Shown in pieces: positions 4,850-10,752 of a stretch of 39,539 nucleotides of DNA. Below the pieces are notes generated by a model that saw nothing but the letters and a program-made list of their open reading frames with translations, made no database searches and was not told the origin of the DNA. A program made the position numbers and the translations under genes. This DNA comes from Thermithiobacillus tepidarius DSM 3134 (lineage in GTDB: Bacteria > Pseudomonadota > Gammaproteobacteria > Acidithiobacillales > Thermithiobacillaceae), in NCBI RefSeq assembly GCF_000423825.1, contig NZ_AUIS01000026.1, positions 1-39,539 on the forward strand. Reading direction: 5' to 3'. The stretch's first letter is position 1; every line of letters begins with the position of its first letter.

Positions 4850-6034
4850 ATGGCGACTTCACAAACGCAGATTTTCCATCAGCCGGGCGCCGACTTCGGG
4901 CAGCCGAAATCCTTCTGGCGCAGCCTGACTTGGCGCGACTGGACCTGGTTCGCGATCCTGACGGTCGGCATCGGCGGCGTCTTCATCAAGTACGGTCCCG
5001 GCTTCGACATCTTCGAGCACGTCATCCTGCTCATCACCTATGTCGGCATGGCGGGCCTGGGACTGCGCTGGCGTCCCATGCAGGCCCTGTCGCTGGTGGT
5101 GGTCGCCGTCACCCTCTTCGCCATCTGGCTCTACGCCCAGGGCGCCACGCCGGAGCAGAACTTCTTTCTCAAGTTCCTGATCTCCAGCCAGTCGGCCATC
5201 ATGTGGATGAGCGCGCTCTTCGTGCTGGCCACCCTTACTTACATGGGCTTCCTGGCGAGCCAGAGCGCTTTCGTCGGCAAGAACGCCACCGCGCTCACCT
5301 GGGCGGCGGTGGCCATGGGCTTCATCGGCCTGGGCGTGCGCTGGCGCGAAACCTATCTGGCCCACCCGGATTGGGGCCACATTCCGGTCAGCAACCTCTA
5401 CGAGGTCTTCATCCTTTTCTGCCTGATCACCGCGCTGCTCTACCTCTATTACGAACGGCGCTACGCAACCCGCAGCCTGGGCGCCTTCGTCATGCTGATC
5501 GTCAGCGCGGCGGTGGGCTTCCTGCTGTGGTACACCTTCGACCGCCAGGCCCAGGAAATCCAGCCGCTGGTGCCGGCGCTGCAAAGCTACTGGATGAAGA
5601 TCCACGTGCCGGCCAACTTCATCGGCTATGGCGCTTTCGCCCTATCCGCCATGGTGGGCGTGGCCTACCTGTTGCGTGATCGCGCCGAGCGCCACGGCGG
5701 CTTCTTCGCCCGCGTGCTGCCGGAGAAGGAAATGCTGGACGACGTGATGTACAAGTCCATCGCCGTCGGCTTCGCCTTCTTCACCATCGCCACCATTCTG
5801 GGCGCCATGTGGGCGGCGGAGGCCTGGGGCGGCTACTGGTCCTGGGACCCCAAGGAGACCTGGGCCCTGATCGTGTGGCTGAACTACGCCGGCTGGCTGC
5901 ACGCGCGCATCAGCAAGGGCTGGCGCGGGGTGCCGCTGGCCTGGTGGTCGCTGATCGGCCTGCTGGTGGTGACCTTCGCCTTCCTGGGAGTGAACATGTT
6001 CCTGTCGGGCTTGCATTCTTACGGGGAGTTGTAA
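4850..6034 (+). CDS. ccsA: Heme-handling cytochrome c biogenesis protein CcsA/ResC (also named CcsB)
   Basis: A 394-residue polytopic inner-membrane protein, partner of ResB in System II cytochrome c maturation. The tryptophan-rich WWD heme-binding signature is seen as WGGYWSWDPKETWALIVW near residues 327-344. Candidate heme-ligand histidines lie in MKIHVPANF (about 251) and WLHARISKG (about 351). The protein is longer than typical 320-residue versions because of extra N-terminal sequence with several membrane spans. GGAAGGAG at 4837-4844 gives a strong ribosome site for the ATG at 4850. A strong terminator follows, closing the resB-ccsA operon. Automatic annotation often calls this family CcsB. 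Confidence 0.93.
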   Translation: MATSQTQIFHQPGADFGQPKSFWRSLTWRDWTWFAILTVGIGGVFIKYGPGFDIFEHVILLITYVGMAGLGLRWRPMQALSLVVVAVTLFAIWLYAQGATPEQNFFLKFLISSQSAIMWMSALFVLATLTYMGFLASQSAFVGKNATALTWAAVAMGFIGLGVRWRETYLAHPDWGHIPVSNLYEVFILFCLITALLYLYYERRYATRSLGAFVMLIVSAAVGFLLWYTFDRQAQEIQPLVPALQSYWMKIHVPANFIGYGAFALSAMVGVAYLLRDRAERHGGFFARVLPEKEMLDDVMYKSIAVGFAFFTIATILGAMWAAEAWGGYWSWDPKETWALIVWLNYAGWLHARISKGWRGVPLAWWSLIGLLVVTFAFLGVNMFLSGLHSYGEL

Positions 6035-6058
6035 GCAGTCCCGGCTTGCTGGTACGAG

Positions 6059-6089
6059 GCCCCCATCCGGCGTTGGATGGGGGCTTTTT
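6059..6089 (+). terminator. Intrinsic terminator after ccsA
   Basis: GCCCCCATCC (6059-6068) pairs perfectly with GGATGGGGGC (6075-6084) around a 6-base loop, followed by five T. It ends the resB-ccsA transcript. Confidence 0.92.
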
Positions 6090-6337
6090 CGTGGTGTGGA
6101 GTTGGGGGTGGAGTGGACTGCGCCCGTGGGTGGCTTAGAGGCCGGGAGCGGCTCGACAGCCGTGCTTTGCCGTTCGCTGCGCTCACTCTCGGCTGCGCAA
6201 GAAGTAAAGAGCCGGGCCCCGTCCCGCCCTGCGGGTGCCCTGCGCGGCCCGCCGCCTCGGCGCGACTCGGCGGGACAACGGAGTGAAAACGGCCAACCTT
6301 TGAAACTCCCGGAAACCCAACCTTGGGTCGTGCTCGC

Positions 6338-6380
6338 CCAGGGCACGTGGGAGCGAGCTGACTCGCGATAACGTGCCTGG
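6338..6380. repeat. REP-like palindrome R1 nested in a longer inverted repeat
   Basis: The REP-type core at 6347-6369 contains GCGAG-CTGA-CTCGC. It is enclosed by an outer near-perfect inverted repeat: CCAGGGCACGT (6338-6348) against ACGTGCCTGG (6371-6380), with one unpaired G. The whole unit could fold as one long cruciform or hairpin. Confidence 0.7.
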
Positions 6381-6391
6381 CTGCACGGCGG

Positions 6392-6454
6392 AACGACTTG
6401 GCGGCCGTGCAGGCCTGCTTCGCCCAATTCGGCTACGACATTGCCGCCATCATC
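6392..6454 (+). pseudogene. Isolated 63-bp fragment of hemL (about 90 percent identical to the intact gene)
   Basis: By hand alignment, 57 of 63 bases match the minus-strand hemL sequence at 10141-10203 of this window. Read in the hemL frame the fragment gives NDLAAVQACFAQ and on to GYDIAAII. Five of the six differences are at third codon positions and only one codon is changed (Glu to Gln). There is no start, stop or further hemL homology on either side. The right end abuts the REP-like palindrome R2. It cannot be functional as an enzyme. Confidence 0.85.
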
Positions 6455-6476
6455 GCGAGCCAGCTCGCTCCTGCAG
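6452..6476 (-). repeat. REP-like palindrome R2
   Basis: On the minus strand it reads GCAGGAGCGAGCTGGCTCGC and then GAT. Compared with R3-R5, both halves of the stem changed together (GCGGG/CCCGC to GCGAG/CTCGC), so pairing is kept. It touches the end of the hemL fragment. Confidence 0.75.
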
Positions 6477-6604
6477 CCCATGGGTAGCGCGGCCCAGCTC
6501 GCTGCCGGGCATCGATGGGCACTGCGCCCGCCCCGGACACATCCTTCCATCGGGAGCGGTCAGGATGAGCGGAAGCGTTAGCTGATGCCCGGGCACTGCT
6601 CCTC

Positions 6605-6665
6605 GGCCATACGGTCGGCACCAGCTGTAGGAGCGGGCTGGCCCGCGATCAACCATCCCGACCGC
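6605..6665 (+). repeat. Imperfect direct repeat, copy 1 (contains REP R3)
   Basis: About 60 bases that recur at 6812-6872 with scattered changes. The shared order is a CCAT-CGG block, ACCAGC, the REP core, then ATCAACC and a diverging tail. The similarity extends about 20 bases upstream of the REP core, so the repeated unit is larger than the REP itself. Confidence 0.65.
6627..6654 (+). repeat. REP-like palindrome R3 (first arm of a REPIN)
   Basis: Reads GTAGGAGCGGGCTGGCCCGC followed by GATCAACC. The stem is GCGGG-CTGG-CCCGC. The GTAGGAGCGGG head is the one known from Pseudomonas-type REP sequences, which are moved by RAYT (TnpA-REP) enzymes. With R4 it forms an inverted pair 17 bases apart. 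Confidence 0.85.
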
Positions 6666-6671
6666 CACCCA

Positions 6672-6695
6672 ATCGCGGGCCAGCCCGCTCCGACA
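6672..6695 (-). repeat. REP-like palindrome R4 (second arm of the REPIN)
   Basis: Inverted relative to R3; on the minus strand it reads GTCGGAGCGGGCTGGCCCGC and then GAT. R3 and R4 together span 6627-6695 and could fold into one long hairpin, the arrangement called a REPIN. Confidence 0.85.
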
Positions 6696-6811
6696 GGCCA
6701 GTGTGCCGGCCCGCCAAGGATTGGCACGGTACCGCACCCGTCCGGAATACCCTGTCTCTGGGCGCGGACAGGGTGAGGGGCCAGCGTGGCTGGCGCCCGG
6801 GTAGCGCCCTT

Positions 6812-6872
6812 GGACCATGCGGCTGGACCAGCCGTAGGAGCGGGCTGGCCCGCGATCAACCGTCGCGGACGC
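6812..6872 (+). repeat. Imperfect direct repeat, copy 2 (contains REP R5)
   Basis: Second copy of the unit at 6605-6665. It carries GGCTGG-A-CCAGCC just before the REP core, a small perfect palindrome that copy 1 lacks. Confidence 0.65.
6834..6861 (+). repeat. REP-like palindrome R5
   Basis: Identical to R3 over the REP core and the following GATCAACC (28 bases). It is a single element with no inverted partner nearby. Confidence 0.85.
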
Positions 6873-7159
6873 CCGTGTATCGCAAGTGCGCTCTTACACG
6901 CTTCCGCCTGCATCCCGCAGAGCCTGCCGCGAATAGCTTCTCCCGCCGGGTGTGGACGGGATGGGTTTGGCGGTGGGGTGATTTTCGGACAGTGCGGCAG
7001 AAAGATTCCGATACGTATCAGGCGACGCGGAGGCGCGTGTTTTGGGTTCGCTGCGGTGGCCGCTCGAGTGCCTACTTGGCCTCACAGAAAACGGGAGACA
7101 GCGGAATGCGTGGGAGGCGAGTCCGGGAAGCGGCGCAGAGAGGCAGGGTTGGCGCGGGG

Positions 7160-7642
7160 CTAAGATTTGACGGCGGTCCGCACCCACTCCAGGATTTCCG
7201 CCAGCCGCGCCGGCAGCAGCGCCCGTGCCTCCGCGAAGCTCGCCCAACGGTATTCGTGATGCTCGGGGCGGCCGAGTCGGGGGTTGATGGACAGTTGCAC
7301 TGCCGCTTGCCGCGTTTCGGCGATGTAGAGGCGCGCCACCTTGCCGTGGCCGTAAGGGGCAGTTTCCCGGCAATCCAGGCCCCAGCGGAAGGAGAGATCG
7401 GTGATGCCGGTTTCTTCGGCCACCTCGCGGACGGCGGCTTGCAGCGGATCCTCGCCGGACTCCACCACCCCCTTGGGAAAGTCCCAGTTGCGGTAGGCGC
7501 GCAGAATGAGGCAACACCAGCCGGCAGGATCACGCCGCAGGACGACGACGCCGGCGGAGCGGACTTTGACTTGTACGGCGGATGCCGGGCCCGGCTCAGG
7601 GCTTGGCGGGCAAGGGCGCGCGCATGGGTCGGCCCTGGGCAT
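7160..7642 (-). CDS. Nudix hydrolase (Ap4A-hydrolase-like)
   Basis: A Nudix-fold pyrophosphatase of up to 160 residues. The Nudix box (GX5EX7REUXEEXGU) is seen as GVVESGEDPLQAAVREVAEE followed by TGI, with the metal-binding Glu residues intact. A WDFPKG motif just before the box is typical of the asymmetric dinucleoside-tetraphosphatase branch, which cleaves diadenosine tetraphosphate; the substrate here is inference. The domain begins near 7570, but no usual start codon lies between there and the ATG at 7642, so that ATG is used. It lies inside the end of the upstream ComEA-like gene (47-base overlap). The first 25 residues are Pro-rich and may be a linker. Confidence 0.82.
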   Translation of the reverse strand: MPRADPCARPCPPSPEPGPASAVQVKVRSAGVVVLRRDPAGWCCLILRAYRNWDFPKGVVESGEDPLQAAVREVAEETGITDLSFRWGLDCRETAPYGHGKVARLYIAETRQAAVQLSINPRLGRPEHHEYRWASFAEARALLPARLAEILEWVRTAVKS

Positions 7643-9462: not shown

Positions 9463-10752
9463 TCACTCTAGGTTGGCAAAAACGGCTTCGGCGGCGGCCA
9501 GGGTGGCATCGATGTCCGCCGTGCTGTGGACAGTGGAAACGAAGCCCGCCTCGAAGGCGCTCGGGGCCAGGTAGACGCCGCGCTCCAGCATGCCGTGGAA
9601 GAAGCGCCGGAAGCGGTCCACGTTGCTGGCCATGACCTCTTCGTAGCGGCTGACCTTGGGCTGGTCGGTGAAAAACCAGCCGAACATGCCGGGGACCACG
9701 TTGATGCGGAAGGGAATGCCCGCCGCTTCCGCCAGGGTCTGCATGCCTTCGCTCAGGGCCAGCGTCTTTTCCGCCAAATCCTCGTAGACGCCCCGTTGTT
9801 CCAGCAGGCGCAGGTTGGCGAGGCCGGCGGCCATGGCTACCGGATTGCCGGACAGGGTGCCGGCCTGGTAGACGGGACCGAGGGGGGCGATGTAGTCCAT
9901 GATCTCCGCCCGGCCGCCGAAGGCGCCCACGGGCAGGCCGCCGCCCACCACCTTGCCCAGGGTGGTCAGGTCCGGCGTGACGCCGTAGAGCGCCTGAGCG
10001 CCGCCCAGGGCGACGCGAAAGCCGGTCATCACCTCGTCGAAGATGAGCACGCTTTCGTAGTGGTCGCAGATGGCGCGCAGGCCCTCCAGGAAGCCGCGCT
10101 CGGGCGGCACGCAGTTCATGTTGCCGGCGATGGGCTCGACGATGATGGCGGCGATATCGTAGCCGAACTGGGCGAAGCAGGCTTCCACGGCCGCCAAGTC
10201 ATTGTAGGGCAGGTTGATGGTGTGCTGCGCCAGGTCGGCGGGCACGCCGGGACTGGTGGGCACGCCCAGGGTCAGGGCGCCGGAGCCGGCCTTGACGAGC
10301 AGGCTGTCGGCGTGGCCGTGATAGCAGCCTTCGAACTTGACCAGCTTGTCACGCCCGGTGTAGCCGCGCGCCAGGCGGATGGCGCTCATGGTCGCCTCGG
10401 TGCCGCTGGACACCATGCGCACCTTGTCCATGGACGGCACCAGGCGGCACAGGGTATCGGCCATCTCCACCTCGATGGCGGTGGGGGCGCCGAAGCCCAG
10501 GCTCCTGGCGGCCTGTTCCTGCACCGCCCGCACCACGTCGGGATGATTGTGGCCGTTGATCATCGGCCCCCAGGAGGCCACGTAATCGATGTAGCGGTTG
10601 CCGTCCACGTCCCACAGGTGGGCGCCCTCGCCCCGCTCGAAAAAAACCGGCTCGCCGCCGACGCCCCGGAAGGCGCGCACGGGGGAGTTGACCCCGCCCG
10701 GAATGTGGGCTTGGGCCTGCTGAAAGAGTGCGTGGGACTGCTCATGCCGCAT
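9463..10752 (-). CDS. hemL: Glutamate-1-semialdehyde 2,1-aminomutase
   Basis: A 429-residue PLP enzyme that converts glutamate-1-semialdehyde to 5-aminolevulinate, the second step of the C5 heme pathway. Visible motifs are [11 protein letters not shown] near the start, [17 protein letters not shown] (phosphate binding), FDEVMTGFR (Asp contacts the PLP ring nitrogen) and [12 protein letters not shown], whose Lys forms the Schiff base. Length matches the usual 426-430. The ATG at 10752 has GGAG 7 bases upstream. A 63-base piece of this gene, or of a close homologue, is present at 6392-6454. Upstream lies thiE, 211 bases away, so hemL may have its own promoter. Confidence 0.96.

Follow-up and report, generated by a model that had tools for sequence, protein, structure and literature searches.

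Inserted into a REPIN in an intergenic region of Thermithiobacillus tepidarius DSM 3134 is a scrap of hemL coding sequence, 60 bases long, which sits between the loop and the right arm of the element. The window, that is, the whole stretch of 39,539 nucleotides analysed, forms contig 24 of a genome assembly that has 43 contigs and a total of 2,958,498 bases; this assembly is given, in the available part of its description, as Illumina only at 116-fold coverage (PMC5037610). We consider that the insert probably arose by microhomology-mediated templated insertion of DNA from a hemL allele into the REPIN, that its Gln codon was probably rewritten in place later, and that nothing points to a function for it. 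The features of the window on which the argument turns are the following.

6350-6369, plus strand: left REP arm of the REPIN, GGAGCGAGCTGACTCGCGAT (pattern search and local scan)
6370-6391, no strand: loop of the REPIN, 22 bases as usual, with a final ggcgg that several other REPIN loops in this genome also have
6381-6389, plus strand: part of the loop (loop offsets 11-19), CTGCACGGC, which pairs with the insert as the left half of a 9-base inverted repeat
6392-6451, plus strand: 60-base insert from hemL codons 184-203, with the hemL sense on the plus strand (from the match and the excess over a 22-base loop)
6404-6412, plus strand: part of the insert, GCCGTGCAG, right half of the inverted repeat, containing both Gln-codon changes
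6452-6471, minus strand: right REP arm, starting with ATCG, which is also the next hemL bases (junction microhomology)
6630-6691, no strand: ordinary REPIN with a 22-base loop, in the same cluster as the filled REPIN
6837-6856, plus strand: single REP, in the same cluster as the filled REPIN (local scan)
9463-10752, minus strand: hemL, the donor gene or the donor's orthologue (Pfam Aminotran_3)
10141-10203, minus strand: hemL segment homologous to the insert (blastn match)

The gene at 9463-10752 (minus strand), which has the Pfam domain Aminotran_3, is one that we take to be hemL, encoding glutamate-1-semialdehyde aminomutase. The fragment matches this gene far above chance: positions 6392-6454 (plus) and 10203-10141 (minus) are identical at 57 of 63 bases, as an earlier preliminary description had counted, and blastn of 6201-6700 against the window gave the pair an E-value of 1.6e-21. 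Shuffled versions of the fragment reached at most 36/63 (200 shuffles). Control 63-mers taken from that intergenic region (n = 42) did not exceed 48/63, and the top four of them fall within the REP cluster's internal repeat. The matched stretch corresponds to hemL codons 184 to 204 (numbered from the start at 10752), and the six differences are distributed as had been claimed, with five at third codon positions, one at position 1, and a single altered codon, Glu to Gln. In a whole-genome search with 6388-6454, hemL was the sole other strong match (E 7.4e-19), followed by a weaker one of 24 bases (23/24, E 1.7e-4) to an aminotransferase paralog on contig C5. The fragment lies 3.7 kb from hemL; this nearness is not independent evidence, because the preliminary description could notice only donors inside the window.

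In the preliminary description the fragment abutted a REP-like palindrome. Contact with a REP was confirmed, but the position is inside a REPIN, delimited by two inverted REPs of the same family (6350-6369, plus; 6452-6471, minus), and not beside a REP. REPINs have been characterized as hairpin-forming inverted REP doublets in which spacer length is seemingly critical (Bertels and Rainey, 2011, PMC3116915, in the part available). The arms of the element at 6350-6471 are separated by 82 bases, 22 of them loop-like and 60 from hemL, compared with a standard loop of about 22, and without the 60-base insert the loop has the standard length. The final bases of the 63-base match (ATC, then G) are also part of the right REP arm, and the inserted segment proper is the 60 bases at 6392-6451; the right arm begins flush after the hemL bases, with no base lost. 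The filled REPIN folds with its stem kept (z-score -4.62; none of 200 shuffles as good), and the flanks joined without the insert also yield a long hairpin stem.

The REP family GGAGCGNGCTNRCYCGCGAT has 351 matches in the genome at up to two mismatches (169 forward and 182 reverse), and the reversed control pattern has none. Loci read for REP pairs came from the first 100 of these 351 matches and from a separate genome search; 37 of the 42 distinct inverted pairs have loops of 20-25 bases. A survey of exact matches to the family pattern, at loop lengths of 18-116 bases, returned 55 pairs genome-wide: 51, of which 50 were listed, with loops of 18-25 bases, none of 26-54, four of 55-85 and none of 86-116. 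Gene donors were sought for the long loops only, and the present case is the only gene-derived loop insert among the 55 exact-family pairs surveyed by loop length. Three other long-loop pairs were rejected as gene scraps: the loop at C1:126469 holds a nested ordinary REPIN, and the pairs at C1:95932 and C1:98143 have a common loop of 77-78 bases with no gene donor. Queried with its C1:95932 copy, this loop was found in three copies, all on contig C1 within 8 kb, with no other match. A further long pair, whose REPs carry changes, has a loop of 132 bases (L015:11565-11736).

The surroundings of the filled REPIN hold additional repeats. A decayed REP (three mismatches) at 6486-6505 lies 14 bases past the right arm in the same orientation, and a non-coding unit of about 115 bases, running into a REP, occurs twice in the same intergenic region (6552-6666 and 6760-6873, 78% identity). 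The 309 bases preceding the REPIN have 18 dispersed genome matches, none in hemL; the recurring pieces come from 6097-6298, 15 of the 18 other places are within about 230 bases of a listed REP, and a second set of dispersed non-coding repeats seems to be common to REP clusters. Dense REP clusters are present at C1:88763-103049 (L015), which holds the thrice-occurring 77-78-base loop, and at C1:122573-126575 (L016), which holds a 160-aa RAYT-like ORF. The genome has two Y1_Tnp matches.

C1:124675-124986: Y1_Tnp in the 160-aa RAYT-like ORF, between REPs at 124567 and 125094
C31:4624-4947: Y1_Tnp in a 288-aa ORF

The ORF on contig C1, RAYT-like by its Y1 domain, is thus a candidate RAYT gene beside REPs.

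At the right junction the hemL match continues into the REP arm, where hemL reads ATCGTCGAGCC and the REP reads ATCGCGAGCC; ATCG is common to both, and the shared stretch extends, with a gap, to ATCG(T)CGAGCC. By a post hoc test, 0.9% of window positions (both strands) align equally well to the arm and 0.4% start with ATCG. The left junction has one shared base at most. Since ATCG and the longer gapped match are common to hemL and the REP, microhomology-mediated copying is suggested. A short hemL stretch would have been copied or joined into an already existing REPIN, entering exactly between the loop and the right arm, at ATCG and the longer gapped match. By the likely route, the polymerase would have switched templates at the REPIN hairpin, or a short single strand would have been integrated at a replication fork; a donor 3.7 kb away would suit a switch near one fork.

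The same junction bears on the proposal, made in the preliminary description, that the fragment was captured by REP mobilisation, which found no support in the analysis; the homology points rather to template switching or short single-strand integration. Such capture would be RAYT-mediated, a transposition intermediate of a REPIN having picked up hemL DNA and brought it to 6350-6471, and this is improbable in our estimation. In its favour, REPINs are abundant, a REP cluster on C1 contains the 160-aa ORF with a Y1-transposase domain, and the hairpin stem is preserved in the filled element; however, no REP stands beside hemL (REPs in the window are confined to 6350-6856 at up to three mismatches), and the donor and target share homology at the right junction. 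A search for copies of the fragment beside REPs elsewhere in the genome, which had been put forward as a check, likewise disclosed no second filled REPIN (40 of 143 candidates scored).

The fragment was searched for in 57 genomes including its own, and was matched in its own genome only and in none of the 56 relatives. The exact pattern of its first 51 bases found 0 stretches in a contig collection that may omit near records. The hemL protein matched at least 591 stretches of that collection; the best 80 loci were combined with 29 from the relatives, the genome's own locus being left out of the 30 named, into a comparison set of 109 hemL-bearing loci, examined over the positions that passed a simple letter filter. 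Within this set, the fragment is the nearer of the two for 51 loci and the local gene for 31, with 27 ties; the best locus (47/63) is equally far from both. A hemL closer to the fragment than the local one, as the preliminary description had anticipated in a relative, was therefore found neither in the 56 relatives nor among the 109 loci, in a test of little power, since none of the relatives belongs to this genus and near records may be missing from the contig collection.

The weaker match on C5 brings in a possible chimaeric donor, with the first 24 bases of the insert taken from the C5 aminotransferase paralog and the rest from hemL. These bases agree with C5:70897-70874 at 23 of 24 positions, compared with 21 of 24 for local hemL; however, hemL and the paralog themselves agree at 22 of 24, so that two bases carry the case, and an extra event is needed; we regard this origin as very improbable. 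Independently of the insert, hemL 10180-10209 (minus) and the class-III aminotransferase paralog at C5:70874-70903 (minus, L014) share 28 of 30 bases around a YNDLAAVEA motif, in a stretch that includes a TTG leucine codon, and the two proteins are 39% identical; judged from this stretch, micro-conversion between the two genes is possible.

The two changes in the Gln codon extend the inverted match of the insert with the loop from 6 bases, as in local hemL, to 9 (GCCGTGCAG versus CTGCACGGC). In a post hoc test, a 9-base inverted match appeared in 0.0008 of six-change mutants with random changes and in 0.0018 of those with third-position-biased changes (5000 simulated each); 15 of 1067 window 63-mers also reached 9 bases against the loop. 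As the Gln-codon changes make the 9-base inverted repeat, they may have arisen in place, and a reasonable reading is that one quasipalindrome template switch, using the neighbouring loop, rewrote both bases of the codon after insertion. If the Gln-codon changes arose in place, the remaining four differences are all silent. Quasipalindrome-associated template-switch mutation similarly produces changes at imperfect inverted repeats in the available part of its description (PMC7202029); the present instance differs in that the switch would be read from a single pair of changes.

Among the genomes searched, the only other member of the family belongs to a sister genus. It keeps the gene order of the window, with homologues of genes that we take to be resB, ccsA, comEA, HIT, M48, hemL, thiE and thiD (the Pfam check covered hemL and a NUDIX gene). 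Its syntenic 16 kb yielded no REP, and over the whole length of this genome there is one REP match with two mismatches, versus three for the reversed-pattern control. It follows that either REPs expanded in the lineage of T. tepidarius or the other lineage lost them; if they expanded, the insert would be younger than that expansion. The NUDIX-domain gene (Pfam) at 7160-7570, which adjoins the REP cluster, has no match in the same syntenic 16 kb. At the six sites that distinguish the fragment from local hemL, the sister genome agrees twice with the fragment, twice with the local gene and twice with neither, so that the differences are not polarised by it.

The preliminary description had reasoned that a dead copy drifting from the local gene would not favour silent sites. 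Under drift of the scrap alone, the probability of at least five of six differences at third positions is 0.018 (exactly five, 0.016), and that of exactly five is about 0.05 if both copies change, with an assumed third-position share of 0.435. In hemL relatives, 99 of 130 differences are at third positions (19 non-independent segment pairs with 5-8 differences over the same 63 bases, counted under a letter filter similar to that above), which gives a probability of 0.37 for exactly five of six; the whole-gene comparison of hemL with the sister genome has a third-position share of 0.64, which gives 0.23. On six sites, these values are suggestive of a hemL allele as template, which they favour roughly 7- to 22-fold. 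The part of the argument that stands is therefore the likeness of the pattern to that among hemL relatives, and it is tempered by the lack of a closer donor in the search above and by Gln-codon changes that possibly arose in place.

A local copy that then drifted, with both copies mutating, the gene mostly silently and the scrap anywhere, is a rival origin that we judge possible but doubtful. Its donor would be the closest hemL, which lies 3.7 kb off in a region of conserved synteny; the even agreement of the sister genome with each copy would let changes lie on both branches, and a Gln codon altered in one in-place event would leave four differences to explain. The exact five-of-six probabilities under drift of the scrap or of both copies nonetheless fall well short of the 0.37 obtained for hemL relatives. 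With templated insertion as the preferred reading, the template would be a hemL allele that differs from today's local gene, coming from another strain or from an allele that was here before hemL changed or was replaced.

We see hardly any prospect that the insert was selected, because a REPIN transcript would base-pair with hemL mRNA or act on hemL in some other way. The match is 90%, and a minus-strand transcript would run antisense to hemL mRNA; however, within 6000-7200 nothing reached the gathering score of an Rfam family, there is no promoter-like site of the sigma-70 type, the only type sought, and the insert is absent from all 56 relatives.

Several known systems resemble parts of this arrangement. 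The inverted doublet, the hairpin and a RAYT-like gene in a REP cluster are shared with REPINs and RAYTs as described in the available part of PMC3116915, where DNA insertion into REPINs is named as one way to REP singlets (Bertels and Rainey, 2011); here, a 60-base coding scrap is inserted and both arms are kept. REP elements are likewise insertion sites for DNA in the case of REP-targeting insertion sequences (Tobes and Pareja, 2006, PMC1525189, in part), but an insert of 60 bases is too small for a transposase gene. Gene scraps in REPINs are not described among the literature matches listed, and the illegitimate-recombination passages of PMC13344027, PMC8116780, PMC7997844 and PMC6321871 contain no close description of the insertion mechanism. 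Taken together, the insert looks like the molecular fossil of a one-off copying accident, well resolved but ordinary, of a known kind and with no sign of function.

Short-patch integration, in which Harms et al. (PNAS, 2016) reportedly observed short genomic or foreign segments being integrated at microhomologies, offers a likeness in the short segment and, at the right junction, in the microhomology, and what would be seen here is one old insertion read from a genome. The T. tepidarius case is an unusually readable instance of short templated insertion in bacteria: the template (hemL, 57/63) and the target can be named, as can the components of the empty site and the homology at the junction. 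A single such event is seen, and a single case is a curiosity. It is a long shot that REPIN hairpins are recurrent traps for short gene copies, with replication stalled at the loop-arm junction switching to nearby genes; if they were, REPIN loops would archive former alleles of neighbouring genes, and this insert would be a relic of a hemL allele that is extinct or foreign. Were such inserts common in REPINs across strains, they would mark sites of template switching during replication and keep the sequence of lost alleles.
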